Positions 885 to 60,667 of a DNA stretch of 64,000 nt are shown one piece after another; position 1 is the stretch's first letter, and each line of letters opens with the position of its first letter. Both the position numbers and the translations under genes were made by a program. The notes below the pieces were generated by a model. It had not been told where the DNA came from. It worked only from the letters and a program-made list of their open reading frames with translations, and did not search any database. The stretch is from Tribonema minus (lineage: Eukaryota > Sar > Xanthophyceae > Tribonematales > Tribonemataceae): assembly GCA_017506865.1 (NCBI GenBank), contig JAFCMP010000368.1, positions 806,001-870,000 on the forward strand, written 5' to 3'.

Positions 885-991
885 GGTCACAAGTTCAGAC
901 TGGACCTGATGGAGCTGGCCAAGCGCGATGCTGACGGCACGTGCACGGCTGCGCTGGTGGCGTACGTGTCACTGCAACCCCACGTCTACAG
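885..991 (+). CDS. S8 protease exon 1 (first seen)
   Basis: TTTGCAG acceptor and AG/GTGAGG donor; begins GHKFRLDLMELAKRD and ends phase 2. It is part of the N-terminal propeptide-like region before the catalytic domain. Partial copies lie on both sides. Confidence 0.7.
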
Positions 992-3900
992 GTGAGGCAG
1001 TGCTCTGCTGGTGTCACTAACAGAGCTGGTCTAGTTTCCAGAAGCGGACCGCGCGTGCTCGCGGCTGCGCTGGTGGCGTCCATGTCACTGCAACCCTACG
1101 TCTACAGGTGACGCAGCACTCCGTTAACAAGAGTGCTCTGGTTTCTGAAGCTGCACAGCGCTTCGCAAAGGCGTACGTGTCGCTGCGACCCCACGTCTGC
1201 AGGTGACATACTCCAATGAGAATGTTATATTTGCTGGAACTGCAGCGGCACCCGGTGTTCAAACGAGCACCTTCCTCGTGAATTGCGGAATGCGCACATG
1301 CTGCTGCCTAACCCTAACCCTAGCCCTAGGGTTCAGCGCGCCGCCGGAATAATCGTTGATCTCTGTTTCTGCCACACGAGGTTAGGGTAGGGTTAGGGTT
1401 ACACTTCTGAGTCTCCAAATTCGGTTGGACCCCTCACTCTTTCGAAAGAGCATGTCACTCTGTTGCCGTTTGCAAACGTCCATTTTTTCAAAGCTTCGGC
1501 TTCAAGAACTGACATGGGCGCATAAGTGCAACGGTGCGACGGCGCTCGTTCAGCTGCTGTTCAGTCTTGTTGCATGCATCTGCTCTGTATATACGAGACC
1601 TGGCATGGGTGCAGTTAGTCGCGCATCAGTTTTGGGGGCGCTGTGCCTGCGCACCCCAGTCTTGTGACATTATCGATGCATCTGTTAATAAAATTGTGCT
1701 AGTTTCTGGAACTGCACAGCGCTCCGCACCTGTACCCCTAGTGTGCCTTTTTGCAAGCAACACCTTGTACTCAGGGTTAGGTGCTGCGGTTCGTGCTATG
1801 CAGTGCGTTATCGCAGACTTTGAGGGTTGAAGTTAGGGTTAGGGTCAGGGCTGACTCACTCCATGCTCACATGCTACATATCCCTGGCTGGAGGCGGTTC
1901 GAGCTTTGCAGTACGTCAACGCAGCCTACGAGGGCATTTTGATGAATAAGGTAAGGGTCAGGGTTGGCTCACTGCGCACTACATACTTACATACCCTTGG
2001 GGTTAACTCACTCGTGTTCATACCTACATTTTCCCCAGACTGGGGGTTAGGATTGGGGTTAGGGTACACTCACTTCGTGCTGCTCATTCCCATGTACCCC
2101 AGGCTGAAAAGCAGGGTTAGGGCTAGGGTTAGCTCTCTCTGTGCTCATGCCTACGTACCCAGGCTGGAGGCGCAGCACAGGGCCATCCTGTTCAACAACC
2201 GTGACGCCGTCATTAGGGTTAGGGTCAGGGTGAACTCACTCTGTACTCATCCTAACGTACCCTGAGGTTTAGGGTTAAGGTTAACTCACTCGCGCTTACG
2301 CCTACATGCGCCAGCCTGGAGGTTTTGGGTAGGTTGGTTGTTACGGTTATTTCACTCCGTGCTCATAACTACGTACCCCAGGCTGGAGGCGCAGCACAGG
2401 GCCATCCTGCTCAACAACCGCGACGCCGACTGGGTGGCGCAGCCGGGACGCTAGGGTTAGGGTTAGGGTTAACTCACTCTGCGCTCAAACCTACATACCG
2501 CTGGTGAGGGTTAGCTTTAGAGTTAACTCACTCTGTGCTCATACCTACATACCCCCAGGCTGGAGGCGCAGCACAGGGCCATCCTGTTCAACAACCGCGA
2601 CGCCGACTGGGTGGCGCAGTCAGGGAGCCTCAACCTGTGGCCCATGTGGAGCGCTGGCATCCTGGGCGCTGGCGAGGTCATTGGCATGGCGGACAGCGGT
2701 GCGTCACTCTTATTGCAAAATTTCATGTTGAAGAAAAGTGAACACTATACCTTCTAGTCCAAGTATACGCCCAAATGGAGCGCTGGCATCTTCGGCACCA
2801 GCGAGGTCATTGGCATGGCAGACAGCGGTTCGTCACTTTATTGCAAAACCTCAAGTTGAAGTCAATTGTGAAAATTAAGTTCAAGTGTGCGGCCATGTTG
2901 ACCGCTGGTGTCCACATGCTTGTACATGTGCGTGGGGGGATATCTCCAACGTGCCATGCTGCACAGTGCTTGGCGACTTTCTCAGTAACAGTATCGGCAA
3001 TGTTCTTCGCTGCTGCCGCCGCTGCTGCCGCAGGCGTGGATTCGCCGGTGGTAAGTATGTAGTACATACACGTACATGAGTGTGGGGTAATATTGATGTA
3101 CCGCGCTGCATATATATAAGTACGCTCTTGGTAACATACTCAGTAATGCCCTCAGTGAGTAACGTTATGGGTAGCGTTTTACTTCGATGTAAGTAACGTT
3201 CTTCGCTGCTGTCGCCGCTGCTGCCGCAGGCGTGGATCGCCGCCACTGCTCGTTCTACGACAGCGACGGCATCATCGTCAAGGCCAGCGCGTGGAACGCG
3301 CCCGTGACCGACAACACGCGCAGAAAGGTGACAGCGCTCAGTAAACGCGCTGCTTGTGTTACTTTCAAATTTGGCGAGTCCTGCGTACATACCTTGAAAG
3401 GCAGCAAGCACGCTTTGAGTACGCGGCAGGTGACAGCGCTCAGCAAAGGTGGCTCACTATCTTACTTTGTCTCTTTAGTGGATCTCGCATTGATGATGGG
3501 TTCGGGTTAGCTAGCCCTAACCCTATTACTAAACGTGGTCAAGGCCAGCGCGTGGAACGCGCCCGTAATTGACAACACGCGCAGAAAGGTGACAGCGCTT
3601 CAGCAAATGTAGCTCGTTTTACTTTGTCTCTTTAGTGGATCCCGCATTGATGATGGGTTCGGGTTAGCTAGCCCCATTACTAACCGTGGTCAAGGCGAGC
3701 GCGTGGAACGCGCCCGTAACCGACAACACGCGCAGAAAAGTGACAGCGCTCAGCAACTGCGGCTCACTTGTTCACCTAAATGGTAGTGGATCATGCACGT
3801 GAATCATAGAGCCCCTGCTTGCCTGGAGTACATTGCAATTGTGGCAGGCAATAATGTACTGACGCGTGTGATTGCTCAGCGCGTGATTTCTCAATCTGCT

Positions 3901-6900
3901 CCTTGACAGATCATCCAGTACATTGCTTACGTGGACAGTGAGGATGAGAAGAATGGGCACGGCACACACGTCGCGGGCACGCTAGTCGGCGCCAGGGACG
4001 GCACGACAGCCGGCAGCACCATCACTGATGGCCAGGCGTTTGAAGGTATGTATAACAGCATATTCTACCATGAATGTGTCTTGATGGACGCTCTCTAATC
4101 CTCCTGGACGTATCGTATGCTGCCGAATGCAGTTGAGCTGCAGTGCGCGGTGTACATTCAAGAATCATCAACGTGCTTCAAATGCGCTTGTTTGAAGCAT
4201 CGGCAGAATATGTGCGTGCATGCCAGCCGGCGCCAAGGGACGGCACGACAGCTGGCAGCACCATCACTGATGGCCAGGCGTTTGATGGTAAATCAGTCTG
4301 CGGCCGATGCTGCGTGCTTTTCAATCATTTGTGACCAAGTAACTGTGCATACTAAGCCTAATCTCATTCGCCTCAAATACTAAGCCTACATCTCGTTCAC
4401 CGTTGTGACTCGCAGGCAAGATCACGGTGTTTGATTTTGGCGCCAGCGACGGCACCGACAGCCTGTCGGTCCCGGGCGACGTGCAGACGATGCTGCTGGC
4501 GCCGTCTTACAACGCCGGCGCACGCGTGCACAGCAACTCGTGGGGCACGCAGTCGGTGCAATACCAGGCAAGTTAAAGTATGTACTTGAAGTATGATGCT
4601 GCGGGCACCATCGTATGCGGCGGGCGCGCGCATGCACAGCAACTTGTGGGGCACGCAGTCGGTGCAGTACCAGGCAAGTTGAAGTTGGGACTTGAGCGGT
4701 GTATGATGCTGCTGGCGCCTTCGTCGGCCGACGCAGCACCAGGTGAGTTGAAGTATAATCTTAAGTATGTATGATGCTGCTGGCGCCTCTCGTACGCGGC
4801 CGGCGCGCGCGTGCGCAGCAAATCATGGGGCACGCAGTCCATGCAGTACCAGGCAAGATGAAGTATGGACGTCAAGTTGAAGGATGTTTTTGAAGTATGT
4901 ACGATACTGCTGCTGGCACCGTCTTCCCCCTCAGGCGCGTGCGTGCACAGCACGTCGGCCCTGAAAATGAAATTTAACCCTAACCCTAACCTAACCCTAA
5001 CCCTAACCCTCTGTCTCCTCACGAGCGCGCAGCAATTTCACGTTGAGATGGACTTGGGTTAGGGTAGGGTTAGGGATAGGGTAAGGGTCAGTCTGTCAGC
5101 GGCACATGAAGTTGTTGACCACAGCCGGCAACTGCTGCGACGTCTTCAATGACTCCTCGGCCCTGAACGTCACCTACAATTCCTTTGTCCCTTCATGTGC
5201 GTGCAGCAAATCGACGTCGAGATGGATACGTACGTGAACGACCACCAGCAAATATCGTTTTTTTACTTGACTTACCTCATACTTGAAGTGTGACCATGTG
5301 GCAATGTCTCCGATACGCCCCCTTGACCCTGAACGTAACCTATAACTTCTCGTCTCCTCACGAGCGTGCAGCAAACCGATGTTGAGATGGACACATCCAT
5401 CAACGACCACCAGCAGATATCGTATTGGTCACTGTACTTACTTGATACTCGAAGTACGCCCACGGCTAGCATCCGCGGCGATGTCTCCAACGCCTCATTA
5501 ACCTGAACGTAACCTATGAATTCTCTGTGTCCTCACGCGCGCTTTACTTACTTAATACTCGAAGTACGCCCACGGCTAGCATCTGCGGCGATGCCTCCAA
5601 CGCCTCATTAACCTGGACGTAACCTATGAATTCTCTGTGTCCTCACGCGAGCGCAGCAAATCGACGTCGAGATGGACACGTACGTCAACGACCACCAGCA
5701 GATGCTGATCGTCATCGCTGCCGGCAATTGCGGCGACGTCTCCAACACCTCCCTCGATTGCGGTCCCGAGTTCACGGGACCGAACTCCCCATCCGTCTTT
5801 TCACCGGCTCAGGTCAGGGTTAGGGGTAGGGTTAGGGTTAGGGTTGGGGGTAGGGGGTTAGGGTTGAATGTAGGGCTAGGGGTAGGGGTAGGTCCACCTC
5901 CCTCGACTGCGGTCCCGAGTTCACGGGACCGAACTCCCCATCTGTCTTTTCACCGGCTCAGGTCAGGGTTAGGGGTAGGGTTAGGGTTAGGGTGGGGGGT
6001 AGGGGGTTAGGGTTTAATGTAGGGCTAGGGTTAGGGTTAGGTCCGTGTCCCTCGACTGTGGTCCCGACTTCACGGGACCGAACTCCCTATCCGTCCTCTC
6101 ACCGGCTCAGGTTAGCATTAGGGTCAGGGGTGGAGTGAGGGTTAGGATTGGGACTAGTTGAGGCTAGGGTTCAAATGTAGGGCTAGGGTCACGATTAGGG
6201 CCAGCTCCCTCGACTGCGGTTCAGAGTTTGCAGGATTCCACTCTCCATTCGACTTCTCCAAAGCTCAGGAATGCATAGCACAAGGTCTAGGGTTGACCTA
6301 GGGCTTTCTTAGTTAGGGTTCAGGCTAGGCCTTAGAATGAGGGTGATAGGATCGGGCTCAGTCGGGTTAGGGTTGGGGTTAGGGCTATGGTCACGTCCCT
6401 CCACTGCGGCCCCAAGCTCACGGGCTCTAGCCCTTCATATCCTCAGCTAGGGTTGCCTAACTCCGACTCTAGCCCCTCTCGCTGGTTCAGATTTGTGTAG
6501 GATGAGGGCTAGAGTTTGGAGTGAGGGCTAGGGTCGGGGCTGAGTTGAGGATGCAGAGATTGGGGCCAAAGTTAGGGCTAGGGGGTAGGGTCAGGGTTAG
6601 GGTTAGCGCTACACATCTGCCTCCGCATTCTCTGCAATTAGCATGTGCATCAACGACAGTGCTTACGGCTGAGGTCTGGGGGTAGGTAGGCTATCGGGGA
6701 CGCGTGAGCGCTACTGCTCACTGGCGGTTCTATGTCGTGTGTGGGGTGCGGTTGCCTTGCCTTGAGGTTACTTGCTGAATCTTTGTGACCTCGTCAATGT
6801 ATGCACACTCCCAGTTATGAGTGCATCTGCCGACCAATGGTGGATGTCAAGCGTCGCGGGAGTATTGCTACTTGCGTGAGCATTGCTCCTGCACCCGCCT

Positions 6901-9900
6901 TCCCTAACTGCTGCACGCCTGTGCATGAATGGCACTGCAGAACCCTAGCAGTAAGGTGGTGGCACCGCTACGTACTTACCCATCCTGGTGGAACCCCCCT
7001 CCCCTTTGCCTCAGTGTAGTCGTCAGTTAGGGTCAGGGGTTGCGGCTGACATGGTTGGTGTTGCGCTCAGGAGAACAAGGGTTTCAGGGCTGGGGTTAAC
7101 GCTAGGGCTGACGTGGTTAAGCATTAGGATTAGGTGTTGCAGTCAGGAGAAAGGTTTTAGTAGGGCTGGCGTGGAGGTAAGGGTGGGGGTATCAATCATA
7201 GGCAGGCTGCGAATTTTTCTTACTGTAAGCTCTGCATGAGTGTCGTATATACCTACCCAAGCTGTCGTTGAGACTCTCGCTGCTCCGGTGGAGATGGTCA
7301 GTATCGCAATCTGCGGGATTGGTGCACGAATGCCCTTGTATGCATACGCCCAGCACATATGCCAAGCACGTGCATGCTGCGAGGTTATAGACTATCAGCC
7401 TTGGCATGAAGTTTGCTACATACCTACCCAAGCTGTCGTGGGGACTCTCTGCTGCTGTGGCAGTATTGCTTAGGTTTAGGCCCAGGGTTAGGGCTAGGCG
7501 TGGTTGGTGTTAACGTCAGGAGCAGGGTGAGGGTTGGGGTCAGGGTCTTGGCTCATCGATGGCTGCATCCGCTGTTGCCGTGCGCTTCTTTTTTCTGTTT
7601 GCAGGCGAAGAACGTCGTTGCAGTGGGCGCGAGCTACAACTACCCCAACAATGTGGACGGCGGCGACATCAACACGGTCAGTAATCAATACCTACCTACC
7701 CCTATTCACAGTTTATTATGCCTACCTGCGCGAGCTACAACTACTTCAACAAATGTGGACGGGCGGCAACTTCAATACGATCACTATCAATTTCCTGACT
7801 GATACCTGCGTATCAACACAGCCAGTAACCAATATCTTGAGTTTTTCTCCCCTATCAGTTATAACCGATACCTTATAACCGATACATGCATACCTCAACA
7901 TGGTGAACCATTTACATACCTAGCTCAACCACCGACGTCATACTTGTTTGCTGCCTTGACCCTGTGGGTGACCAGTACCTACGTACCCCTATTTATAGGT
8001 TGTACCGATCCCAACATAGTGAACGACCACAGGGTCAGTTACATGCCTAGTCGCTCTCAACTACGTCCAAGCTGTTGAGCTGCCTTGAGCGGAGCGACAT
8101 TTTTGCTGTTGCTTCTGCCGCCCCTCTTGTTGCCTTGTTGACAAACACATATCGCGTTCTTCAGAGCGAGAGCGGCCTTGAGAGCAGCATGTTTGCTGTC
8201 GCTTATTTCGCCAGCACCCTTCGTTGGTTGCCTTGTATATTATCACAGATCGGTTTCTTCAGTCGGAAAGCTGCCATGAGAGCAGCACATTCAACGCTGC
8301 TTATTCCGCTGCCCCCTCTCATTGATTGCCTTGTTGATCAACACACATCGCTTTGTCAGTGCAAGAGCTGCCTTGAGAGCAGCTCATTCTCTGTTGCTTA
8401 TTCCGTCGGCCCCTCTCGTTGATTGCCTTGTGAACATAGGTAGATAGATTAGATAGATCATGTTTTTTGAGTACGAGAGCTATGCGTCGTTGCTTATTTC
8501 GCTGGCGCCTTGTTGACAAATGCAGATCGCTTTCTTCAGTGCTAGGGGGCCCACGGTAGACGGCCGCATCAAGCCGGACGTGGTGGGCCCCGGCTACTCC
8601 CTGGTGAGTCGAGTCAAAGAGTCATTGACTGATGAATCATCAAGTCATCAAGCCTGGATCTCAAGCTACACTTGGGATGCGCCACCTGCTGCATGCACCT
8701 CCCTTAGGATTGTCTTAGTGTGCGCAGTAGTGTGTTTTGATAGCATTGAGTGATATTTGATGGGCCGTGGCTACTCCCTGGTGAGTCGAGTCATAAATTC
8801 AACGATTGACCAGACATTGAGTCAATGAGCCTTCAACCTGTATTTTTAAGGTACACTTGGGAAGCGTAATCTGCTGCATGCACTTCCCTTGGGATTGTCT
8901 TGGTGCGATCGGGAGGGATGTTTTTGATGGCATTCAGTGGAATGGTGGCCCCAGGCTACTCCCTGGTGAGTTGAGTTATAGTGTCTTCTGACTGATGAGT
9001 CATCGAGTCATCAGCAGATATATTTGCGGGAACCTGTTGGCGCCTGGTCTGATGTGAGAGCCAACGTGTGAGCTGCAGCAGCAACGCTCAGGGGAGCGAC
9101 CGATTTGCCAGGCTGATGCGGCAGTGGTTGATTGCTCATTGCTGAGCGCTGCAGTTTTTTTTTTCGGTTTTGCTCGCAGACGTCCGCAAGCGCCAACACG
9201 CCATATTTCTGCAGCAGTGCTCACTTTGTTGGATTTGCTGATGGCTGAGCGCTGCTGCTGTTTGCTTTGCGTGCAGACGTCCGCAAAGCGCCAACGCCCT
9301 AGTTTCGTGCAGCAGTGCTCAATTTTGTTGAATGTGTTTGGTGGCTGAGCGCTGCTGCTGTTCTGCTCTGCGCGCAGACGTCTGCGAGCGCCAACACGCC
9401 GGGCGGAGGGCCAAGCTGCGCCTCGGCCTCCAGGTGCGCACAGTGTTGAACTTGAAGTACTTTGTTGAAGTTGAACCTTGAAGTACATTGCTTGAAGTTC
9501 TTACGTGTACTGCCAGGACCAGACCGTAAGCGGGCTGTGCATTCCTGAGACTCAAAGGACTTGGAAGTTTGCTTGAATTACTTGAAAGTACTTCGCTTGA
9601 AGTACTTGACAGTATATGTACCGCCATAGCCAGTGCGTGAGCAGGCTGTCCATTCCTTCGACGCATGCTGCCGTCGATGGCGGCGCGTGTAGTGGCAGCA
9701 AGTGGTAGGGTTCGGGTTGCGGGCAGTGGTGGGGGTATGTACGGCCTTGACTGCTGAGAGCAAGTTCCTTGTATTTCTGACCGCGAGCCGTGCGGCCGCA
9801 GGCAGGGACCATCAATGGCAATGCCCAGAGTCGAAGCGAGCATCCGTGTGAAGATTACGCTTAGGGTTGATGTTGGATTTAGGGGCACATTAAGGTGCAC

Positions 9901-12900
9901 ACTGCTGCCACCAGGCCGCGAGCGCAAGCTCAGCCTTATTCCATTTCAAACGTAAACCTCCTCCTCGCTGTTGTGACGCACGTTGTCGTCATTGCAGGCA
10001 GGGGACGTCAATGGCAACGCCCGTGGTGGCGGCGAGCGCGGCGCTGGTCAGGCAGTACTTCAGGGAGGGATGGTGAGAAACTCACAATGTGATGTCAACC
10101 TTGAGGTTGCTGGTGAGGAAGTTCACAATGTGAACTTGAACTTGAAGTTGCTGTGCATGTTGTCGCAAAAGTGGTGGCAGCGAGCGCGGCGCTCGTCAGT
10201 ACTTCAGGGAGGGCTGGTGAGAAACTTCACAATCTAATGGTACACTCGACCTTGAAGTTGCTGCGTATGTTTTCGCAAAAACGTGGTGGCCGCAAGCGCA
10301 GCGCTGGTCAGGCAGTATTCCAGGGAGGGCTGGTGAGAAAGTCCACAGTGCAATGTTGAACTTGCATTGAAGTGACTGTGCATGTTATTGCGAAAATGTG
10401 GCCGCTGCGAGCGCGGCGCTGGTCAGGCTGGAGGGCTGGTGAGAAACTTCACGATGTGGTGTTGGAACTTGAAGTTGCTGGTGAGAAAGTTCACAATGAG
10501 ATGTTGACCTTGTGCATGTTGTCGCAAGATGCGGTGGTCGCAAGCGTGGCGCTGGTCAGGCAGTACTTCAGGGAGGGCTGGTAAGACACTTAGTAATGCA
10601 ATATGAAGGTGCGGGGCTGAGCTTCAACTTCATGCGTGTGGGGCTCAACTTCAATTTCATGTGTGTGCAGGTACAACAGCGGCGGCCAGGCCGCGGACGA
10701 GGAGAACTTTGGCTTTCTGCCGAGCGCAGCGCTGCTCAAGGCAGTGCTCGTCAACTCCGCGCACGCCGTCAACAACGTCGAGCAAAAGCCCGCCAATGCG
10801 CGGCGCTCGCTGCTTGAGGTGAGCTAGCGTGTGCGCACCCCTGCTTGGAGTCGTTGCGTGATCTACTTGGTCAGATCAAGCGACAACAGAATAGTAGCAG
10901 CAGTGCTCGTCAACTCCGCGCACGCCGTCAACAACGTTGAACAGAAGCCCGCCAACGCGCGGCGCTCGCTGCTCAAAGTGAGCTACCGGTCGCGCTCTGC
11001 GATAACTATCATATCGTGAGTCCTTGTGCTTGAAGTGCATCTTACTTAGGCAGATCAAGGGACAGATTACGGGCAACAGCAGTGCTCGTCAACTCTGCAC
11101 ACGCACACGCCGTCAACAATGTCGAGTGGAAGCCCGCCAACGCGCGGCGCTCGCTGCTCGAGGTGCGCTAGCGTTTGAGCTCTGCTGTTGTGAGCCCTTG
11201 TACTTGGAAGTCTGATAAGTTTTGTGGTAAGAGTTCTTTTGGTCAAGCGACGAACACGGCAGCAGCAGTGCTCAGATGCTCGCCGACGTGCGGCTCTCGC
11301 TGCTCGAGGCGAGCTAGCGATTGCGCACCGCTATTGTGAGTTCTTGTGCTTCAAGTATGATTCATCTTGGTCAAAAGTGAAGCGAAAAAGAATGGTAGCA
11401 GCAGTGCTCGTCAACTCTGCGCACGCAGGCAACAGCGTCAAACAAAAGCACGGCAACGCGCGGCGCTCGCTCCTCGAGGTGATCTGGCAGAATAATAATT
11501 GTTTACACTTGAACTATGCAAGTCTCATAGTCTAATCCGAAAAAAGGAAAATCAGCAGTGCTCGTCGACTCCAGGCGAGCCACCGCGCAGCGACGTGGCA
11601 TCTGAGCTTTGATGCCTCTTCTCATCACATATGTTTTGCGCAAACAAATTTAGTGTATGTTTTTCGAAGTGGGTGAAGTGTGCATCAAAATAGGTGTGAT
11701 GCAAAGCACAATTACGTGCGGTTTGTGGACCTTTCAGCGTTCACTCAATGGCGCTGCCGCAGCGTCAGAGTCAGAGTCGGAGTCGGAGGTGGCATCGGAG
11801 CGCTGACGCCTTGACTTCTGCAACGACTTCTTTTGTCGCGTTGTTTCTCGCAAATGGTGGTGTTGTGTTTTAACAGCGGATGAAGTGTCTCTTCAGAAAG
11901 ACTCAGCGCAGAGCCCTTTTGCGTGCGGTTTGTGGAACTTCCGGCGTTGAATCAGTCATGGCCGCTGCTGCTTTGCGTTGCAGCACACGTAACACACTTG
12001 CGATCAGCCTGCGTGTCCCTCACCCGCAGCCCTGAGGCAAAACAGCAGATGCCATCGCCGACATTGAATTCCTGCGGTGCAAGTTTGTGTGGTGTGCCTG
12101 CCATATTTGGCTTCATGTCATGACTGCCCCCTGGTATCAGGGCTATCGTCAGAGCTAGCCCAACTCCATCACTGGCCTCACCAGAAGCAGATGCCATCGC
12201 TGACACTGAACTCACTCGTGGAACTGTCACGCGTCTGCTTTGTAAAGAAGGGTCACAAAGGAGGCCGCGGCTCGTGTGCAAGGCTGCGTCTCCTGTGTGT
12301 TCCTGGCATGTGCAGCAACTACTTGAAGAGCCTGGATTCACTCGTAGTGCTGCTGCTACGCAGCGCGCGCGCTCACCGAGATGCGTAGCGACGTGCCTTG
12401 ACAAACACCTATGATTGGAGTTAGCGTTAGAGTTGGCTTGAACCTCACCCTGGCCTCACGAGAAATAGGAGTGCTATCAACAGACGCTTGACTTGCGGTA
12501 CTGTCACAATGTCTGTTTTCGCCGCGCAGCGCGCACTCAGCGGAGACGTCGCACAGGCTTTCGGCATTGGCTCGTACGGTGAGAGTCACTTCAAAGTATA
12601 CTTGAAGTATTACACCAGCTTCGGGTGCCCTATGTGGAGACACATTTCTCAATACATACTTGAAGTTTGTTACTACAGGGCGTAATAGTCAGCCACATAC
12701 ACCACAAGCATGTGGCATTCGAAGTTGGGCATCTAATCTTACGGTGAGACGGCGCCGCCAAACACCGTGAGTCGATACTGCAAACTGCAGTTGCGCAGCG
12801 ATGAAGGAGACACTTTCAAGTCACAAGTATTTACACACCGGAGGAATGTACTTCAACCGCGTAGTTTAGCGCATCGGCTCTTAGGGTGAGACAACCTTCA

Positions 12901-21416: not shown

Positions 21417-21838
21417 ACTGCAAGTCTACTACTTCAAGTAGGTGGCCCCGTGAGCGCCGGCGCCGCTTTGGCGGCCCGAGCGCCTCTTGAGTCCTTTCCT
21501 ATTCCCAGCTGATTATACCCTTCCATCTACATGCACACGGCTTTAGTTCCTCTCACTGCGCGTTGCAGCTTCTGCGCTCTGCCTCTCGCGTGTTCGTACT
21601 GTTCCCATGTGCCCATTGCCCATTGGTATGGCTTGTTGTCAGAAAGGTCAAGCGTTTGGTGAAGAGTCAGAAGGCGCAGGATTGTGCCTGCAGTTGACTG
21701 GCTGCCATTGAAGGCGCAATTATTGGCACCCCACATTGAGTGGGTACCACAACGTACTGCATATAGTCACAGAGACACGGACATTGCAGCAGTGGCGCAC
21801 CGCTTGCATGCGCGTAGCGCCGGCTGTACTTTGTTGTT

Positions 21839-22021
21839 AATTCTCGCTCAGGGCGCGACAAAGCCCAGATGAATGGCATCTAACTTGAAGCTTGCTGTAT
21901 GGAACTACATGTCGTATGACAGTCTGAAAGCGTCTCAACGACAACCACTCAAACGCCGCCGCCCCCAAATGGTATTCGGGATCCTCCCCTACTTCCTCCA
22001 TGTGTGCCCCCCCCCCCCCCT
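21839..22021 (+). mobile_element. Dispersed repeat A, copy 2
   Basis: Same orientation and ends as copy 1, including the terminal C run at about 22007-22020. Shares a few extra 5' bases (TTAATTCTCGCTCA) with copy 3. Lies between the S8 gene and the convergent unknown gene. Confidence 0.6.
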
Positions 22022-42262: not shown

Positions 42263-42291
42263 AGCTTTGAAAGGCGACTTTGAGGCGCGAG

Positions 42292-42317
<26 letters not shown>
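42292..42317 (+). repeat. 26-A run (T run on the - strand)
   Basis: Uninterrupted A26. On the - strand it directly follows the tRNA-like sequence and precedes the LINE start codon by about 30 bases. It could be a polymerase III terminator or a retroposon tail remnant. Confidence 0.85.
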
Positions 42318-42322
<5 letters not shown>

Positions 42323-42389
42323 CAGGCTCGGTCTCGAATGCGCGGCTGCCAACCGCGAATACTCCCCTGCACAACTATACCACTTTCAG
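42318..42389 (-). tRNA. Degenerate tRNA-like sequence followed by 26 T
   Basis: On the - strand these 72 bases contain an A-box-like GTGGTATAGTTGTGCAGG, a perfect five-pair stem CGCGG/CCGCG closing a seven-base loop TTGGCAG (the anticodon position would read GGC), and a B-box-like ATTCGAGACC. They end CTC and then 26 T, which would stop RNA polymerase III. The T-stem and acceptor stem do not pair properly, so this is a tRNA pseudogene or tRNA-derived SINE head, not a working tRNA. Confidence 0.4.
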
Positions 42390-47142: not shown

Positions 47143-47259
47143 TGACTCGTGGCCAATTGCTGCAGCAGCGGCGACCACGGTTATTGGTGGAAGGCACTTG
47201 CGCCTAACCATCCTTGTCACCTAGAGCTCTACGATCTGTTGCTTCGTTTTCATTCATTC
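47143..47259 (+). mobile_element. Dispersed repeat B, copy 2
   Basis: Same order of blocks as copy 1 (GACTCGTGGCCAATTGC, GGTTATTGGTGGAAGGCACT, CTTGTCACCTAGAGCTCTAC). Lies downstream of the recognised biotin synthase exons. Confidence 0.55.
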
Positions 47260-48185: not shown

Positions 48186-48374
48186 CTGAGAGGCCTGCTT
48201 GCTTGAAGTGTGCGTGATGACCACCTTGGAACCGTCCACAGGCGTGAACTTCCCAGTGCATCCCAGTTCCTCGTAGTTGCGCTCGCTGAGCGGTGCTGCG
48301 GACTGCTGCACGAGGGGGCTTTCCTGGGGGGCCATGTGTGAGGGCTTTCCCACCAGGCCGAGCTTGTTGAAGAG
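48186..48374 (-). CDS. BIO2: Biotin synthase exon 11, extended C-terminus
   Basis: CTGCAG acceptor, CAG/GTACGG donor. [10 protein letters not shown] aligns with the family end, then a further 53 residues ([20 protein letters not shown] ... SSKQASQ) without bacterial counterpart. A following exon is expected but not found. Confidence 0.85.
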
Positions 48375-51300: not shown

Positions 51301-54300
51301 GCACTTTGCAAGCATATACATTCATGGTGCGGGCATCAGGATTGTGGCGGGGGAAATGAGGCAGCAGCAGAGAACAGCATGTAGAGAACAGGCGCGCGTG
51401 ATCTTATTTCCACAAAACATTTCAAGAGATTTAGTCTACTAAAACGCTTTTTTTGTCAAGGCAACCGACACAAGCAGGCGTATTGTGGTGCTGTAAGTGT
51501 CTCCACTCCAAGGGCTTCATGCCACGCGCCAGTGCCGCTGGAGTGCAAGGTGCGCTCAGTTTGTAGTGACCCGCGCCATCTCTGCTGAAGTACTGCGGCA
51601 GTAGCCTAGTACGGTGGATGCTGCACTTCGTGCACTGTGTACTTCAAGTGTCAATGCCGTACTTCAACGACAGCTTGCAGTGGCTCACCGTGCCGTGGCG
51701 ATCATGCGGCCCATGTCCCAGATGTCAGGAGGAGCGGCCCCCCCCTGCCAACATATGATACATGCCCATGCAAGGCAACATGAGGATTTTTGTTGTGAGT
51801 TTATAAAACACAGTCATGGGATGAAAAGGCTCAACCAACGGCTCCAGATTCGCTTACAGCACCCGAGTAACGAGAAACGCGAGAACGCAGCCAGCAGCGG
51901 GTCATAGCGTGCATTCGCAAACATACCCATAGACTATCCATGCAAGGCAGCAGACGGTGATCAACGTGCGTACAGACACAGTCATGGCAAAGGCTTGACT
52001 TCCGCTTCCAGAGTATGCTCGCTTGCGCGGGGACAAAGCCAATCCATGCAACCAAACAAGCGTGCATAAACGCAACGGGTGCACCTCTCACCACCAGGCT
52101 CCCTGCATATATCATCACAACAGGCGTGGGAATGAAAGCAAGCCAACGCCAACCCTCATCCCTAACCCCTGACCCTAACCCTAACCCCAACCCTAACCTA
52201 ACCCTAGGCCAGGTTCCTGCAGCATGGAAAACATCACCAATCTGCCTGTGCCTACGCGCGCGACGTGCCCTGTTGAGCACTGCTGCTGAGCATTGCTGCA
52301 TTTCAACGCTCACCTCGGCGATGGGGGTACCGTCAATGGCCACGAGCGCGTTAATGGGCACGCTCTCCGGGTGCTCGTCGAGTGTCGCCAGCGTGTGCAG
52401 CAGTCCCACCCTATCAGCATCACACATCAACGCAATAAATTTCATGAGTTCCTGCATTGATCCTGACATCAATGGACTGGAATTCATGAATCCAGCCCTA
52501 AAAATCATGGATTCATGCAGCCGTCATGATGGGCACGCTCTGCGGGTGCTCGGCAAGTGTCGCCAGCGTGTGCAGCAGGCCGACCCTGTCAGTACATGCA
52601 GAGAAGTCATGAATTCATCCGTTAATGATGACTCAAGGCGGCAACAACTGCTCGTCCACTGTCGCGAGCGTGTGCAGTCCGACCCTGTCAGCATAACAAA
52701 TCAGTAAACTCATGAATTCATGCTTCAATCATGACATCGATCGGTGGAGTGGAATTCGTGCATTTCAACCATCAATCATGAGTTAGAATATGGCATCAAA
52801 CAATGGGCACGCTCTTCGGGTGCTCGTCGAGCGTCGCCAGCTGCAGCAGGCCAACCCTGTTAGGACAACACAACTACCAGTCCACTGAATTCATGATTTC
52901 ATCCATCAAGCAATAAGTTAATGCAGCAAACAATGATGCGAATGCTCGTCCAGCGACGCCAGCGTGTGCAGCAGGGCGACCCTGTCAGCACCACAATGAA
53001 TTCACAAATTCACGCATCAGTCATGCCATCAGTGCATACACAGACATACTCAATGATTGCATGAACTCATACATCGATCATGACATCAATGCATGAACAG
53101 ACATACTTGCCACACTCCTTCTCGAGCAGCCCCGGCATGCCCCCCAGGGGATGCAGTGCTCGACAGGATAGGGCCACGCTCAACGACATCAATACGGTGT
53201 CACACGTAGGTACCTGTTGGGGGCCGGCTCGCCCGATATCATACTGCGGTCAGCGGTACGCATGCGGTTTGTTACATAGATGCATACCTGTCGGGCTCCG
53301 TCTCGCCCAGCCCCAGGATGCCGCCACAGCACACGCTGGTGCTGCAACCCCCGCACGTCGGCAGTTACACATGTTTGAGCGCTGCCAGTCAGCTGAGAAC
53401 ACATCCAACAAACTTCCTGATCCCAATCACCAACAGCATGAATTAGAGTTGCTCAAGGTTGCGGAGCGGGATCAGCTTAAGGCCGCACAGTATGTACATA
53501 CACGCATACCTGTCCGACTCCTTCTCGCCCAGCCGCAGGACGCCGCTGCAGCACACCAAATTACAACGATTACGGGCATGTATTTGAAGTACTTTATATG
53601 CACTTTGTTGCATAGATACATACCTGTCGGACTCCTTCTCGCCCAGCCCCAAAATGCCGCCGCAGCATACGCTGATGCCCGCCTCCCGCACGTTGGCAAT
53701 CGTCTGCAGCCGGTCGTCGTACGTGCGCGTAGTGATCACCTGAGGACATGAAGGAAGAAGGGTCACAGTGGACGCGTTGGGTTGTGCTTACGTGGTGTGT
53801 GAGTGTGTGCATGTGCGCTGTCGCTGAATCAATGAGACGGGTGCAGAATGCCACAAGAGCACGTTGGCGATCGTCTGCAGCCGGTCGTCGTACGTGCGTG
53901 TCGTGATCACCTGAGGAGCGGGTCGGCAGGTGTCTTAGTGGTGTGCTGTTAACAAGGTACATGAGTCTGTGTGGGTGTGTGGCTGTGTGCGCGTGCGCTG
54001 TGCTTCAAGCAATAAGACGCGTGGAGAATGGCACAAGAGCACGTTTGCGGTCGTCTGCAGCCGGTCGTCGTACGTGCGTGTGGTGTTCACCTGAGGACAT
54101 ACAAGGGTCAATGCGAACGCGTTGGTATGTATGTACGCATACGAAGGCGTGTGAGACTGTGTGTGCATGTGGAAGTGTGTTTGTTTGCGTTGGGCTTCAA
54201 TGAGATGGGTACAACAAAAAATGACGCCAGAGCTCACTGGCAGATCGTCTGCAGCCGATCGTCGTACGTGCGCGTCGTGATCACCTGAGGACAAAAGGAG

Positions 54301-57300
54301 GTCAACACGAACGCGGTATTTATGCATGTCATATGAAGGTATGTGAGACTCTGTGCATTGTGCTTGAATGATATGGGCACAACGAGGGATGACACGAGAG
54401 CACGTTGGCGCTCGTCTACGGCCGGTCGTCGTACGTGCGCGTCGTGATGACCTGAGGCCAAGAAGGGTCAACAAGTGGAGCGGATGTCATTCGCCGTGCA
54501 CATGTATATACCTCTTGAAGTATATATAGAAGTATATAACCATCCCTTGTCACCTAGAGCTCAACGATCTTTTTGATTCGTTTTTCATATGTGTGTGTGT
54601 GTGTGTGTGTGTGTGCGTACACGCATAGTGCTGCACGACAACGGGATGGATGATGACTGCAAGCGTGCTAGCGTACAAGCAGTCGTCTGCAGCTGTTGGT
54701 CGGCACGCGTGTTAATAGTATGCTCTCAATCAGGTATATGAGTCAAGTGTAGGCGTGTTGCTGTGTGCATGTGCGCTGTGCTTCAATCGATAAGACGCGT
54801 CGTGAATGACACACAAACACGTCGGCGATCATCTGCTGCCAGTCGTCATACGTGCTTGTGGTGATCACCTAAGGAGTGGGTCGGCACGTGTGCATTGAAA
54901 ATGTTTTACATAAGAGCGTGTAAGTCTAACAGAGTGTGTGATAGTCTGTGTGGGTGGGTGCGTGTGCGTTGCGCTTCAACAATCAAGAACGGCGCAAGGG
55001 CACGTTGGCAAATCGTCTGCAGCCGGCCGTAGTACATGCACGCGGGGAGCGGGTCATTGGCATTGTTGTGTATGAATCCTAACCCTAACCCTTGGTGGAC
55101 GCGCCACGGGTGCGTTGGGCTGTATGGACAAGGGTGAGCGAGACTCTGTGTGTGGGAATGTGTGTGTGTGTGCAGTTGTGCTTAAAGCGTTCGGCAACTA
55201 TTGACAAACCACAAAACAAAAGGCGCGTGCGTGTGGCGAGCGGGTCATGAGCATTAGTATGAATGTACGAACTCTAACCCTAACCCTAAACCCTAATAGT
55301 GTGAATGTATGAACTCTAACCCTAACCCTAAACCCTAAGCAAACGCCCCGCGGGTGCGTTGGGTTGCATGTACGAAGGTGTGCGAGTCTGTGTGCGTGTC
55401 AATACGTGTGTGCGTGCGTGCATGGTGTGCTTCAGCATATTGGGCATCAACATATTGGGTAACTGGTAATGAACCATGAAAAAGAATGCATTGCTCATGA
55501 CCGACTGCTTGCGTATCCAGACTTGAACTGGTCACTGCAACTTGAAGTTCCGTACCTTGGCGTAGTGCTCACGGGAGGTGTCGAGGTTGTGGTTGTAGGC
55601 CGACAGGCCCGCCTCCTTCAGCTGCTTGGCCTGCGGGTTCAGTACCAAGGTAGGTATGGTATGAGAATTTATGGGACATACATGCGTACCCAAACTTGCC
55701 TAGTGCGCGGTGCAAGACTTTACAAGGGTTAAAAATAAGGGTGGGTATGGTATGAGAAGTATGGGAAAAAGAGGCAGGCATACACGGGCCATAGGGTATG
55801 AAAACTATGGGACATGCATGCGCAGGGACATGCATGCGCATGTACCCAAAGTTGCCAAGCTTGCGTGGTGCATGTTTTCGTGAGGGTCCAAGGCCAGGGT
55901 AGGTATAGTATGGAAAATATGGGGTAACTATGCATACCCAGAGTTGCTGGTCTTTCATGACGGTCAATGACCAGGGTAGGCATGGTGCAAATATGAAGGG
56001 GCATACATGATATCCAAACTAACAGCCATCACCGAGAGTCAGCACTCAGCTACCACTGGCAGTCAGTGAGGTGTCATAACAGACAACAGTCAGTGCTCAG
56101 CCATAGCAGACACTGAAGTTGGGGTCAGAGATGTGATTGGGGTCAGACTGAGCATTTGAGGTAATAGTGGGGGGAGTAGGGGCAATGACTCAGCTATGGC
56201 CCCATATCAGCGCTCAGCTTCTGCCGGCTATTACGGAGTGACAGGGCTCAGCTGGCTGCTGTAAATTGGGTCCAGAGTTATGATTTAGTGTTTTGGTCAA
56301 GGTTAGGGTTAGGGTTAGCCAGGCAGCGCTCAGCTCACCTGGTCGAGAGAGAGCATGCCCAGCGTGCAGCACACCTCCAGCCCCATGCCGTTCACGCCCT
56401 TGACCTGCGCCGACGTCACAAGAAACAAGTGAGTGAGTCATGAGTGAATGAGTCATGGGTGTTTGAGTCATCCGCTGCAACCGAGTCAGCGTGCAGCACG
56501 TCTCCAGCCCCCATGCCGTTTGCGCCTGCGCCAACGTCACAAGTGAGTGAGTGAGTGAGTGAGTCATCTGTCGAGGGTGGGTTGTTCAATGCCCTTCGAC
56601 TGTGCCGGCATCACAAAGTGTGAGCGGAAGAGGGAGAGCGTGTGAGTCATGAGTGATTTGAGTCATCTGCTGCGAGTGCGTCTTGGGTGGGTGCACAATG
56701 AGGGACGCATTGCGCAGCGCAGACGTCAAACAGCGCTCAACTCGACCCAGCTGATTCCGAGTGAGCGAGCGAGTGAGTGAGCTACTCATCTGCTGCGAGT
56801 GAGTCCCATGACGCGAGGCACGCCCTCTATTTGCACCAGTTTCAGGGCGCAACCTAACCCTAACCCTAACCATCACACCACCTCTGACTCTGACCCTTGC
56901 TCAGCAGGGCACCGACCCTAACCCTTGCCCTTGCTCAGCAGGGCCAGGAGGTGTTCGAGCTCAGGCATCCTAGAGGTAGGGGGTAACAGCCGGAACACTG
57001 TGCTGATAAGGTGATGTCATCGTTCAGCTGTGTGACTTCACTGAGAGCCAGTGTTCTTGAAGTAGAACCATGGCAACTTCAAGATCCACAACTGCTTTGA
57101 GACAACAGCCATGGAAGCAAGGTTTCTTTTGAACAAAAGTCACTAAGAATGCTACTGCGGACCTTGATCAAACCCTGAACCTACATCCTGAAACTCGATT
57201 TTATGCTACATGTAAGTGGAAGCTGTGCAGGCTGCTGACTTACTCTAACTCTACTTGATACGGGATTAGCGCAGCAGCAGCTGACAGACCTCTCACTCTG

Positions 57301-60300
57301 TCTCTCGATGCTCAGCATCACGTGGGGGACCTCAAGTTCAAGAAATGACCGTTGGACACGCAACCCATGGTTGAAGGCAATCTGCTTGTGCCATCTCGCG
57401 CCACGCCGCGCCCCGTGTGACTAATATACTCACTCACTCACTCACCATGTCCAGGATGTGGTTGAAGGCGTCCTTCTTGTTGCCCATCTCGCGCCACGCG
57501 GCGCCCATGCAATATGACTCATTCACTCACTCACTCACTCCCCACTCACTCTGAAGGCGTTCTTCTTGTTGCCCATCTCGCGCCACGCCGCGCCCATGTG
57601 ACTCATTTACTGACTCACTCACTCACCATGTCCAGGATGTGGTTGAAGGCGTTCTTCTTGTTGCCCATCTCGCGCCACGCCGCGCCCATGCAGAAGCGCG
57701 TGCTGCCCGCCGCCTTTGCGCGCGCCGCCGCTTCCAGCACCTCCTGCACCTGTTTACGTGTACGTACAGCAGAAGAATAAATGAATGTACGCACACAGAT
57801 ACACTCCGGGCGTTGCGGTTTCAGGGCGGTTACGCTACAGCTGCCGTTCAACCCTAACCCTAACCCTAATCTAACCCTAACCCTAACTTGCGCACGCCGC
57901 CGCTTCCAGCACCTCCTGCACCTGATGACGTGTAAAATAACAATAAAAAAGATGCATGCAAAAACATGAAAAACACATGTATGAACATGTGGCCCTGTGA
58001 GTGACTGCAACTCGCTGCCACTCGTGTGTAGAGAGGGCGACGGTTGCACTGACGGTTCCACCCTAAGTAAGTGCAAACTGGCAGTGATGATGCCTGCGCG
58101 CGCCGCCGCTTCTAGCACCTCCTGCTCCTGTTGGGTGCCGATGCGGTGTGGTGTAATCACACAGCAACAGTGAAACTCCGAGCAACTGCGACCTGGCGAT
58201 GATGTTTGCCTGCGCTGCCGCTTCAGCACGTGCAACTGCAAAGTGGCAGCAGCGAAGTGCAGTGATGTTGCGGAACTGCGGTTTGGCAAAGACTTCCGTG
58301 CAAGCCGCCACCTCCAGCACCTCCTGCATCTGGTCAGGTGTAGGTACAGTAGAGATATGCATGAAGAATGAAAAATGCACGGTTTTACAGAAAACTCTGT
58401 GTAACTGTAGGCGTCGAAGTGCGGGCACACTGTGGATTGCTCTGTGGCGTTGCAGAGGCGGTTACACTCTAGGTAACTGCGTGTGCGTGAGCCTCTGCCT
58501 TCAGCACCTGCTACACCTGTTGCCGCGTGGAGGGATGCCTGCCAAAATGGTTGCTCTATGAGTGACTGCAACTGGCGACCACTGATGTGTAGATGGCTGC
58601 ACGCGGGGACGACGGTTGCACTGACGGCTACGCATGCGTTGCCGCTACCGGCGCCTTCTCTGCCTGTGCATACCACTTCAAGATCATGCTCATTTTGAGG
58701 TTGCCGTTCATCTGCGGCGTGGGCTTGACGAATGTCTTGTGCCGCACGCTCTGCAAGTTGAGTCGTCCGCCGGCACTCAAACTTGAAGTTTGTGTCCACA
58801 CTCACCTTCATCTGCGGCACGAGCGTCTTGTGCCGCACGCTCTGCGAGCTGTGTCCTCCCGCAGACAATACAAAAGTTGTAAGTTTGCACTCCAGGATTG
58901 AAGTTGACGCTCACATCTGCGGCGTGGACTTGACAAACGCATCCGTCTGCGGCGTGGGCTTGACAAACGCCTTTGCCGCATGCTCTGCGAGCACGCCCCC
59001 GTGGACAACAAAGTTGAAGGTTGAACTCTCAAATTGAAGTTGGCACTCACCTTCATCTGCGGCGTGGGCTTGACGAACGTCTTGTGCCGCACGCCCCTCT
59101 GCGAGCAGTACGAGCAGTCCTCTGTGCACCCCCCCGTCTTGATCGACAGCAGCGTGCACTGCTGCACCTCGCGCGGATTGAAGAACAGAAGTTGAAGTTT
59201 GTGCTCCAGAATTGAAGTTGAAGCTCACCTTCATCTGCGGCGTCGGCTTGACGAACGTCTTGTGCCGCACGCTCTGCGAGCAGTAAGAGCAGTCCTCCGT
59301 GCACCCCCCCGTCTTGATGGACAGCAGCGTGCACTGCTGCACCTCGCGAGGGTTGAAGAACATCCTGTGCACCGTCGCCGCGCGGTACAGCAGCTCCAGC
59401 ATCGGCATCTGGTAAATCTCCGCAATTTCCTCCTTGGTCCAGTCCTGTGCAGCGCAATGGCCGATCGCGATGATGCTCATAATGACAATTTCGTGTTACA
59501 TGTCCGCAATGATAATATCGTTATCCCCTAAATGAGTATTGCCATCTGGTGGAAGCAGCTCCAGCATGGGCATCTAGTAAATCTCTGCGATTTCCTTCTT
59601 GGCTCAGTCCTATGCGGGACAATTATCGAGCATGATGATGTTACGATGACTGATGAATATCATGTAATGCTTATCAGAATATAATGAGCTTCAGTATCTG
59701 AGTAGATATCCGCAATCTGTCATTTTTCCAACGCTGTGAACCGCCAGATGCATTGAACAAGAACTATGACATTAGCAAAAAAGTATATGTGAAAAATGTC
59801 CGTCTAAAGCAGGTATATTGATGTGGGCAACTGAGCCACAGTTGAGGAGTGTGTGATCAGGCAGCCTCACAGACACAAACAGCTAAGCGATGACTAGCTC
59901 AGCAATGAGGCAGCATCACCCAGGCATACCTACAGGTTTGAGCATGAGGCAACGTCCGCTACGCAGGCTTTCCAACACCCACACCACGGTGGCACGCCAT
60001 GTTGAAGTACGTGGCCACCTCACCACTGCCGACGACACCAACCTGCAGTGCTGATGCATATATGTAGTTGCTTGCCAATGGCCTGTCATAACTCGTTGTG
60101 CGTTGCATGTCGCGCTGATGACGGAGGCGGCGAGTGTTGCCCCACGATGGAACGGTAAGCGGGATCCCGCACGTAGCAGCTGCACACGAGCTACTGGCGA
60201 CGGCTAGCAACGTTGACCAAGAGCCTTCATTTACATAGCAGATCTAAATTTATATGCATGCGACCCCAGCAAGGCAAGGCGCGCGGACCCTGATGACGTT

Positions 60301-60667
60301 GTCGACGCCGTCGTGCAGTGCCACCCCAGATTCAACTACCCAGTTTAAAGCTGCGATCAACACGTCCGCCACAACATCCATGCTTTGCAGGAGCCGAGGA
60401 GGCGGCGATAAAAGCCATGGTCGACAAAGCCGCTGGCAGGCAACTTACATTCCTCACGCTCGCCGTAAACCCATTTAGGCTGCGTGTCTCCCCCATCTTG
60501 ACGTTGCGGGCGACCGCATAGTGAGACTCCGGTGCCGGCTCAGGGGCCTCGTGTCGATAGCTGTCTACTACTGCGGATGCCAGCCTGCTCTGCTCCAGCG
60601 TGGCCCTCCTTCGGACGCCACCGGCAACGATGGATCGCGAGCGCATGAGCATCGTCGCTGCTTTCAT
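48186..60667 (-). CDS. BIO2: Biotin synthase, 11 exons seen, last exon not found
   Basis: Exons 60667-60449, 59444-59229, 57749-57627, 56404-56339, 55630-55556, 53739-53624, 52410-52314, 51744-51689, 51079-51013, 49391-49302 and 48374-48186 join in phase to 438 residues. This radical-SAM enzyme makes biotin from dethiobiotin. The CxxxCxxC cluster is [11 protein letters not shown] (Cys121, 125, 128). The [2Fe-2S] ligands are Cys165 (STRFCMG), Cys198 (GLEVCCTLG), Cys258 (ISVCCGG) and Arg332 (MVRLSAGR). [25 protein letters not shown] and [20 protein letters not shown] are also conserved. The first 73 residues are basic and Ser/Ala-rich, probably a mitochondrial targeting region. Exon 11 continues about 55 residues past the LFNKLGL where bacterial enzymes end soon. 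Intron 9 has a GC donor. It shares a 344-bp upstream region with the helicase gene. Confidence 0.93.
48375..49301 (-). repeat. Intron 10 of biotin synthase: exon-end copies
   Basis: Exon 11 5' copies at about 48480-48512 and 48622-48655 (+ strand GCTTGTTGAACAGCTGCAGA). Exon 10 3' copies at about 49203-49242, 49040-49065 and 48865-48885 (+ strand CGCGGTGTCA). GAATGAATGA runs fill 48400-48780. Confidence 0.65.
49302..49391 (-). CDS. BIO2: Biotin synthase exon 10
   Basis: CACAG acceptor, GCG/GTACGT donor. Encodes [20 protein letters not shown] then [10 protein letters not shown]. Confidence 0.95.
49392..51012 (-). repeat. Intron 9 of biotin synthase: exon 10 acceptor-side copies
   Basis: Copies of exon 10's start at about 49443-49467, 49836-49882 (double), 50693-50722 and 50790-50830 (+ strand AACATGAGCGCCTGT). 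Nothing else coding is seen in 49900-50680. Confidence 0.6.
51013..51079 (-). CDS. BIO2: Biotin synthase exon 9, GC donor
   Basis: GCCAG acceptor. Encodes [20 protein letters not shown] then EQ, with Arg332. Donor CAG/GCAAGT makes a GC-AG intron. Confidence 0.88.
51080..51688 (-). repeat. Intron 8 of biotin synthase: exon 9 acceptor-side copies
   Basis: Two copies of + strand GCGGGCATCAGGATTCTGGC at about 51147-51172 and 51330-51357. Confidence 0.7.
51689..51744 (-). CDS. BIO2: Biotin synthase exon 8
   Basis: GGCAG acceptor followed by a G run, CACG/GTGAGC donor. Encodes [18 protein letters not shown], matching the bacterial FDFIRTIAVAR block. The exact acceptor in the G run could shift by a codon. 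Confidence 0.8.
51745..52313 (-). other. Intron 7 of biotin synthase
   Basis: Holds a CCCTAA array at about 52165-52206 and a loose duplication around GCAAACATACCCATAGACTA-type sequence. No clear exon copies are seen. Confidence 0.5.
52314..52410 (-). CDS. BIO2: Biotin synthase exon 7
   Basis: GATAG acceptor, GAG/GTGAGC donor. Encodes [20 protein letters not shown] then [12 protein letters not shown]. Confidence 0.93.
52411..53623 (-). repeat. Intron 6 of biotin synthase: exon 7 acceptor and exon 6 donor copies
   Basis: Exon 7 5' copies at about 52530-52592, 52650-52690, 52803-52862 and 52935-52990 (+ strand GTCGCCAGCGTGTGCAGCAG). Exon 6 3' copies at about 53503-53558, 53277-53350 and 53108-53165 (+ strand CTCCTTCTCGCCCAGCCGCA). 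Confidence 0.8.
53624..53739 (-). CDS. BIO2: Biotin synthase exon 6
   Basis: CTCAG acceptor, ACAG/GTATGT donor. Encodes [20 protein letters not shown] then [14 protein letters not shown], with Cys258. The exon with the most flanking copies. Confidence 0.95.
53740..55555 (-). repeat. Intron 5 of biotin synthase: six acceptor-side copies of exon 6
   Basis: Copies at about 53865-53915, 54045-54095, 54240-54292, 54405-54455, 54825-54872 and 55008-55045. Each carries + strand CGTCTGCAGCCGGTCGTCGT (or variant), then CGTACGTGCG and GTGATCACCTGAGG, which is the acceptor side. Also a (GT)n run at about 54588-54615 and CCCTAA arrays near 55078, 55272 and 55317. Confidence 0.85.
54541..54590 (+). mobile_element. 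Dispersed repeat B, copy 3 (end fragment)
   Basis: Only the terminal block remains: CCCTTGTCACCTAGAGCTCA then CGATCTTTTTGATTCG. It lies in intron 5 of biotin synthase and is followed by a (GT)n run. Confidence 0.5.
55556..55630 (-). CDS. BIO2: Biotin synthase exon 5
   Basis: CCGCAG acceptor, AAG/GTACGG donor. Encodes [20 protein letters not shown] then EHYAK, the YNHNLDT motif. Confidence 0.95.
55631..56338 (-). repeat. Intron 4 of biotin synthase
   Basis: A loose tandem array at 55630-55990 repeats GGTAGGTATGGTATGAGAA with ATACATGCGTACCCAAACTT. TTAGGG copies at about 56300-56318 adjoin the exon 4 donor. Confidence 0.55.
56339..56404 (-). CDS. BIO2: Biotin synthase exon 4
   Basis: GCGCAG acceptor, CAG/GTGAGC donor. 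Encodes [20 protein letters not shown] then DQ, with Cys198. Confidence 0.93.
56405..57626 (-). repeat. Intron 3 of biotin synthase: exon 4 acceptor and exon 3 donor copies
   Basis: Exon 4 5' copies at about 56488-56535 and, weakly, 56585-56612. Exon 3 3' copies at about 57546-57602, 57443-57512 and 57372-57415 (+ strand TTGCCCATCTCGCGCCACGC). (ACTC)n runs follow the donors. Confidence 0.75.
57627..57749 (-). CDS. BIO2: Biotin synthase exon 3
   Basis: AACAG acceptor, ATG/GTGAGT donor. Encodes [20 protein letters not shown] then [15 protein letters not shown]. Contains Cys165, a [2Fe-2S] ligand. Confidence 0.95.
57750..59228 (-). repeat. Intron 2 of biotin synthase: exon 3 acceptor and exon 2 donor copies
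   Basis: Exon 3 5' copies at about 57893-57926, 58098-58133, 58302-58335 and 58490-58520 (+ strand CCGCCGCTTCCAGCACCTCC). Exon 2 3' copies at about 59051-59186 (long), 58908-58990, 58803-58860 and 58712-58760 (+ strand TGCGGCGTGGGCTTGACGAA). CCCTAA array at about 57850-57890. Confidence 0.85.
59229..59444 (-). CDS. BIO2: Biotin synthase exon 2, radical-SAM cluster
   Basis: CACAG acceptor, AAG/GTGAGC donor. Starts [14 protein letters not shown], then [20 protein letters not shown] with SYCSQ. Phase 0 both ends, 72 codons. Confidence 0.95.
59445..60448 (-). repeat. Intron 1 of biotin synthase
   Basis: One acceptor-side copy of exon 2 at about 59557-59618 (+ strand GCAGCTCCAGCATGGGCATC). No other coding sequence is seen from 59640 to 60440. 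Confidence 0.6.
60449..60667 (-). CDS. BIO2: Biotin synthase exon 1, targeting region
   Basis: ATG at 60667-60665; [20 protein letters not shown] then [13 protein letters not shown], basic and without acidic residues at first, as in mitochondrial presequences. Donor AAT/GTAAGT, phase 0. Confidence 0.75.

Follow-up and report, generated by a model that had tools for sequence, protein, structure and literature searches.

How do exons come to be flanked, on both sides, by partial copies of their own ends? The question is raised by positions 806001-870000 of contig JAFCMP010000368.1 of Tribonema minus, which is placed in Xanthophyceae (assembly of 158 Mb in 554 contigs); this 64,000-nucleotide stretch is referred to below as the window. 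It contains a biotin synthase gene and an S8 peptidase gene with such copies in their introns, and a preliminary description had placed copies of exon 5' ends upstream and of exon 3' ends downstream at roughly 30 splice junctions. On the basis of these two genes and of 28 kinesin loci elsewhere in the genome, we consider it probable that T. minus introns grow by repeated local tandem duplication at intervals of ~90 to 250 bp, many of the duplications spanning a single junction.

Sidedness and locality of exon-end copies

Thirty loci were modelled, i.e., the two window genes and the 28 kinesin loci, the latter being those fetched from ~46 clusters grouped by eye from 132 protein-similarity matches. 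Exons were defined by protein similarity, independently of repeats, and each was then searched against its adjoining introns (match threshold, ≥32 bits); kinesin exons modelled <70 bp apart were merged. Twelve matches of exon 3 of locus L054 (5 direct and 7 inverted) were removed by judgement as low-complexity, as these stretches gave matches on either strand, and L054 was excluded from the junction-cluster counts and the random-placement simulations. The S8 gene was excluded from the other-gene control, from the unit-length, codon-position, and flank tests, and from the junction-cluster simulations. The intron-flank test and the comparison of copy-copy identity cover 21 loci. All rates derive from one genome, that of T. 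minus.

The search yielded 132 direct copies and a single inverted one (32.8 bits). Upstream of exons, 48 copies carried the 5' end, 5 were interior, and 1 was a whole exon; downstream, 61 carried the 3' end, 14 were interior, and 3 were whole exons. Scoring side against exon end, in and beyond the window, placed 109/109 end-bearing copies on the expected side and none on the wrong side, which bears out the arrangement first described. Copies occurred at 64/264 junctions (8/16 in biotin synthase, 17/38 in S8, and 39/210 in the kinesins), and the 25 junctions counted in the two window genes alone come near the earlier figure. The pattern thus extends beyond the window, but the two window genes, singled out in the preliminary description, show it at higher density. 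Copy density is uneven: 14/28 kinesin loci have copies and 14/28 have none at this threshold. Introns with a copy are longer than those without (median, 912 bp [n = 50] versus 574 bp [n = 82]; p = 9e-8), in agreement with the suggested link to intron growth.

The copies lie next to their sources. The 132 direct matches arose in 264 adjoining comparisons, and same-gene introns that do not adjoin the exon gave 5 direct matches (all in S8) and 4 inverted matches in 823 comparisons. Within the set of 21 loci, exons matched their own adjoining introns 68 times in 148 comparisons; the control, in which exons were compared with the introns of other genes, gave 10 matches in 444, which may include paralogous kinesin exon copies. 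Of 100,091 bp of intron, 26.9% falls in local direct repeats, 0.3% in local inverted repeats, and 0.2% in matches to a segment of another gene. When the window was compared with itself (E < 1e-3), 218 matches were direct and 47 inverted; at distances of <1 kb, the counts were 183 and 8, respectively. The one inverted copy mentioned in the preliminary description, near 18508, was recovered as a 28-bp inverted match (18250-18277 and 18499-18526; 93%) outside the genes modelled here.

These distributions bear on the possibility that no tandem duplication took place and that exon ends were copied ectopically, through templated or RNA-mediated insertion into introns close by. The spacing between copies, which mostly exceeds the recognizable copied length, would suit such insertion. 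Under ectopic copying, however, both sides of an exon, both orientations, and other introns should all show copies, whereas we found none on the wrong side, one inverted, and five direct matches among the 823 non-adjoining comparisons. Moreover, the intron DNA next to the copied splice site resembles its counterpart more closely than unrelated junction flanks do in 54/68 copies (p < 0.02); the duplicated unit hence reaches across the junction, and its template was DNA and not spliced RNA. Sidedness, orientation, and locality all disfavor ectopic insertion, which we regard as highly improbable.

Duplicated units and how they may arise

The exon part of the copies measures 22 to 71 bp (5th to 95th percentile), with a median identity of 90%, and the copies are spaced at a median of 157 bp (5th to 95th percentile, 91 to 295; n = 128). 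The clearest case of a young tandem unit, at exon 3 of locus L053, is a perfect 177-bp junction-spanning repeat consisting of 54 bp of exon end and 123 bp of intron (123/123 alike); a second copy of the same exon retains 94% identity in its exon part and ~75% in its intron part. A junction of locus L055 carries a perfect unit of 39 bp, and L055 and L045 contain clean young tandem units that are entirely intronic. Head-to-tail units whose length equals the period were found as 11 near-complete arrays, at any location, in 233 kb; in most junction units the intron part has diverged too far to show this. Subtracting the period from the length of the matching run gave -3 to 6 bp for five simple two-copy events. 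The matching flanks and the young tandem cases, seen well outside the window, agree with the earlier proposal of repeated tandem duplication across single junctions.

Such growth could proceed as follows. Duplication of a unit made up of the intron end, the acceptor, and the 5' part of the exon would leave the intact exon with a partial copy on its upstream side, and duplication of the 3' part of the exon, the donor, and the intron start would leave it with one on its downstream side. One complete exon with both splice sites would persist in either case; since the mRNA would be unchanged, the duplication would be nearly neutral and would survive. Duplications within an exon, of a whole exon, or over several exons would change the mRNA, and most of them would be lost, presumably through purifying selection. 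The surplus copy would decay as intron, and repetition would build arrays. Sidedness would then be expected, because a junction-crossing duplication that spares the mRNA must place a 5' copy upstream or a 3' copy downstream. Random insertion would misplace about half of the copies, and from the uniform sidedness of the end-bearing copies we infer tandem duplication combined with purifying selection. The rarity of whole-exon copies (4/132, all from very short predicted exons of ~36 to 52 bp) fits the same selection filter. The preliminary description had stated that no described process was known to give the two-sided regularity genome-wide; a need for an undescribed process is not supported, as random duplication and purifying selection already yield sidedness.

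If splicing works by exon definition, it may skip a partial copy for want of the opposite site; the one finding that bears on this is the agreement of a transcript-derived biotin synthase protein (P0003) with the modelled exons. The splice sites themselves are often retained, with an acceptor AG in 39/48 upstream copies and GT/GC in 56/61 downstream copies. Mismatches by codon position (5.2/6.7/13.1%) are as expected if the exon is constrained and the copy neutral. Copy-copy identity, in contrast, is 0.84 in exon-derived parts versus 0.73 in the intron flank (exon part higher in 58/68 pairs), and a copy at locus L056 has 66/66 identical exon bases, as would be expected if copies were kept by function, e.g., as splicing decoys or regulators, or were converted from the exon. 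This suggestion was not upheld for copies found by their flanks, in which the exon part is 83.6% identical versus 84.3% for the flank (43/73 matches with exon identity ≥0.7) and is the higher of the two in 20/43; ascertainment therefore explains most of the apparent exon conservation. The codon-position mismatches and the loss of splice sites from some copies also speak against retention or gene conversion, an explanation that we consider improbable.

Several observations weigh against random tandem duplication filtered by selection. When unit length is set equal to spacing, the intron part is recognizable in 16/67 cases at z > 3, a result that calls either for introns that turn over fast or for additional sequence at the join. 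The nearest copy is younger than the farthest in 19/32 untied arrays (p = 0.38), and the within-array rank correlation is -0.32; given this weak outward ageing, copies may themselves be duplicated as arrays grow. The L056 copy, in which the identical exon bases stand beside a diverged homologous flank, is likewise an awkward fit. Finally, copy clusters touch an exon in 46/64 cases, and in 16/18 at ≥90% identity, versus 21 to 39% (16 to 38% at ≥90% identity) when random placement, selection, and detection were simulated under seven settings; a first version of the simulation gave 34 and 36%, respectively. This excess favors a process directed to junctions, in which breaks, nicks, or R-loops at exon-intron boundaries would aim duplication there. 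The clusters, however, merge neighboring events, ancestral introns were perhaps shorter, and the simulation is simple. The young intron-only tandem units likewise argue against aiming, as do the matches ascertained by their flanks, 30/73 of which have no clear exon similarity (identity <0.7). Cluster merging, formerly shorter introns, or junction bias could each contribute to the excess, and a junction-directed process seems to us unlikely, though it deserves to be taken seriously.

The tandem duplications may result from end joining of filled-in staggered breaks, which would be expected to show little or no microhomology at the joins, or from mis-processed Okazaki flaps. Tandem duplications at paired nicks are also known in plants. 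In 53 kb of introns (21 loci), telomeric hexamers (e.g., TTAGGG) are ~11-fold more frequent than expected from dinucleotide composition, and hexamers of the GTTGAA/CTTCAA type are ~3.5- to 5-fold enriched. A telomeric hexamer lies within 40 bp of 14/82 breakpoints, versus 7% of random positions, and at 10/82 on the other side of the copy; GTTGAA-type hexamers lie near 21/82 breakpoints versus 16%, both differences being modest. Telomeric tracts of ≥12 bp occur in 24/113 introns examined. Such short interstitial tracts are possible scars of break repair. The motif data are compatible with break repair and with flap-derived duplication and do not choose between the two. Within the window, interstitial TTAGGG tracts were noted at 439-466, 4975-5010, 5812-5892, 14622-14649, 29523-29552, 30331-30366, 52151-52206, and 57850-57887. 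A GTTGAA/AACTTC hexamer-like motif occurs on both strands, e.g., at 59007-59362, with 8-mers more strongly enriched.

Copies at the two window genes and other features

The biotin synthase gene lies on the minus strand and was modelled by spliced alignment as nine exons (59441..49308), with 25 direct copies. The spliced protein is 100% identical to P0002 of T. minus and, across 96% of the query, to P0003, so that its exons are supported independently of repeats. Exon 1 as modelled (59229..59441; the true 5' end may differ) is followed downstream by five copies of its 3' end (59051-59187, 58946-58993, 58914-58939, 58806-58852, and 58707-58757; 80 to 94%). Exon 2 (57627..57749) has three 5'-end copies upstream (57888-57921, 58095-58125, and 58304-58328; 92 to 97%) and three 3'-part copies downstream (57552-57598, 57446-57511, and 57368-57413; 88 to 100%), one of which reaches the exon end and two of which were scored as interior. 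A single 5'-part copy (56487..56526; 88%) lies upstream of exon 3 (56339..56404), and the search of the adjoining introns found no copies of exon 4 (55556..55630). Upstream of exon 5 (53624..53739) are six 5'-part copies (53859-53910, 54039-54090, 54238-54284, 54400-54451, 54818-54868, and 55000-55042, the last scored as interior; 82 to 94%), and downstream are two 3'-end copies with a donor (53510-53556 and 53288-53363; 83 to 85%). Exon 6 (52314..52410) is preceded by four 5'-part copies (52529-52585, 52649-52677, 52802-52856, and 52943-52974; 88 to 91%), one of them scored as interior. No copies of exon 7 (51689..51744) were found in its adjoining introns. Exon 8 (51013..51079), which has a GC donor, has one 5'-end copy upstream (51323..51343; 95% over 22 bp), and P0003 extends past the last modelled exon (49308..49391).

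The S8 peptidase gene lies on the plus strand (876..15915) and was modelled as 20 exons from residues 234 to 840 of P0126, a 940-residue T. minus protein; the gene extends past both ends of the model. It has 36 copies. Downstream 3'-end copies belong to the exons at 876-991 (1041-1107 and 1170-1202; 85 to 91%), 3230-3327 (3538-3588 and 3689-3738; 94 to 96%), 3910-4045 (4214..4285; 92%), and 15108-15231 (15323-15385 and 15504-15571; 86 to 87%). Two exons have copies on both sides: that at 5657-5812, with two 5'-end copies upstream (5207-5253 and 5372-5418; 87 to 94%) and four 3'-part copies downstream (5895-5961, 6048-6110, 6202-6258, and 6392-6424, the last two scored as interior; 74 to 97%), and that at 13437-13597, with two 5'-end copies upstream (13075-13136 and 13277-13367; 81 to 83%) and five 3'-end copies downstream (within 13703..14117; 87 to 91%). 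The exon at 9998-10072 is followed by four 3'-part copies (10171-10216, 10282-10332, 10398-10428, and 10533-10580; 86 to 90%). P0126 contains repeated peptides (e.g., KPANARRSLLE three times) where short modelled exons, at 2163-2698 and 10671-11478, resemble copies of neighboring exons. These repeated peptides are either annotation errors or the result of real in-frame exonization.

Some modelled S8 exons may accordingly be copies themselves, and the perfect 177-bp repeat at L053, taken alone, could be an assembly error; both points would fit an artifact of assembly or gene modelling. For the copies as a whole such an artifact is barely credible, as they stand at a median identity of 90% with substitutions that differ between copies, and the biotin synthase exons match a transcript-derived protein. 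Among the matches listed in a search for a second haplotype with a 3.8-kb biotin synthase query, the window itself was the one full-length match, the others being short (~40 to 70 bp).

Elsewhere in the window, an uninterrupted open frame of 2,991 amino acids on the minus strand (33410-42385; G+C, 0.63 to 0.67) is apparently intronless, unlike the two neighboring genes, and an 18-bp tandem array (41886-42070) lies on the other-strand reading of this frame. A self-complementary, palindrome-like stretch of ~245 bp (69%) occupies 18602-18846. A dispersed repeat of 124 to 201 bp (91 to 97%) occurs at 16579-16778, 21826-22023, and 28347-28470 and is perhaps a mobile element. At L053, positions 200-689 belong to a dispersed family of ~490 bp with at least 25 further near-full-length copies in the genome (86 to 93% identity). 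A search of the window against Rfam gave no matches at the gathering threshold.

Known duplications and the growth of introns

The closest known case is the potato RdRp gene, in which a tandem duplication across an intron-exon boundary made an intron (PMC4974935). The duplication described there is of the same junction-crossing kind; that account concerns a single gene and a new intron, whereas in T. minus existing introns are enlarged at 64 of 264 junctions and on both sides of exons. Tandem duplication is also counted among the mechanisms of intron gain (PMC3443670 and PMC2891723), where duplication is likewise local and splicing removes the surplus. As described there, an exonic unit gives rise to a new intron; the T. 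minus unit, in contrast, reaches across a junction already present and takes intron flank and a splice site with it. A purely exonic unit that leaves an intron between two AGGT motifs (the Rogers model of exon duplication) does not describe the present copies, 54/68 of which carry intron flank.

In mammals, telomeric repeats are inserted at double-strand breaks, a minority with a target-site duplication (PMC2246262). Judging from the insertions described there, T. minus shares with that system short internal TTAGGG tracts, in which its introns are rich, but the enrichment at breakpoints is modest and is no proof of a common route to the copies. When Okazaki flaps are mis-processed, as in yeast mutants and human cells that are deficient in FEN1/rad27 or stressed, small duplications arise, and in some of them internal sequence separates the units (PMC13202174). 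The T. minus units are likewise small; where that work treats flap-derived duplications, neither splice junctions nor the growth of introns is brought in. Among the matches listed in a search of open-access full text, none reported that introns grow genome-wide through duplications spanning their junctions.

Intron lengthening is mostly attributed to transposons. The junction duplications of T. minus probably represent one route by which introns lengthen, and since conserved exon sequence labels the duplicated intron pieces, single growth steps, their size, and their relative age become readable. For annotators, the repeats in the public S8 protein P0126 are a warning, as they look like exon copies mistaken for exons. 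A more far-reaching, and on present evidence doubtful, version of the proposal is that splice-junction-biased tandem duplication is active in T. minus and is a main engine of intron growth, each round copying a junction together with ~50 bp of its exon and 100 bp of its intron. Half-exons would thereby accumulate in strings, their splice sites live-looking but necessarily disregarded by splicing, and new peptide repeats would occasionally be fed into proteins. These introns constitute a natural test of splicing, in which normal-looking donors and acceptors beside partial exons, a few hundred bases from the real ones, must be bypassed.

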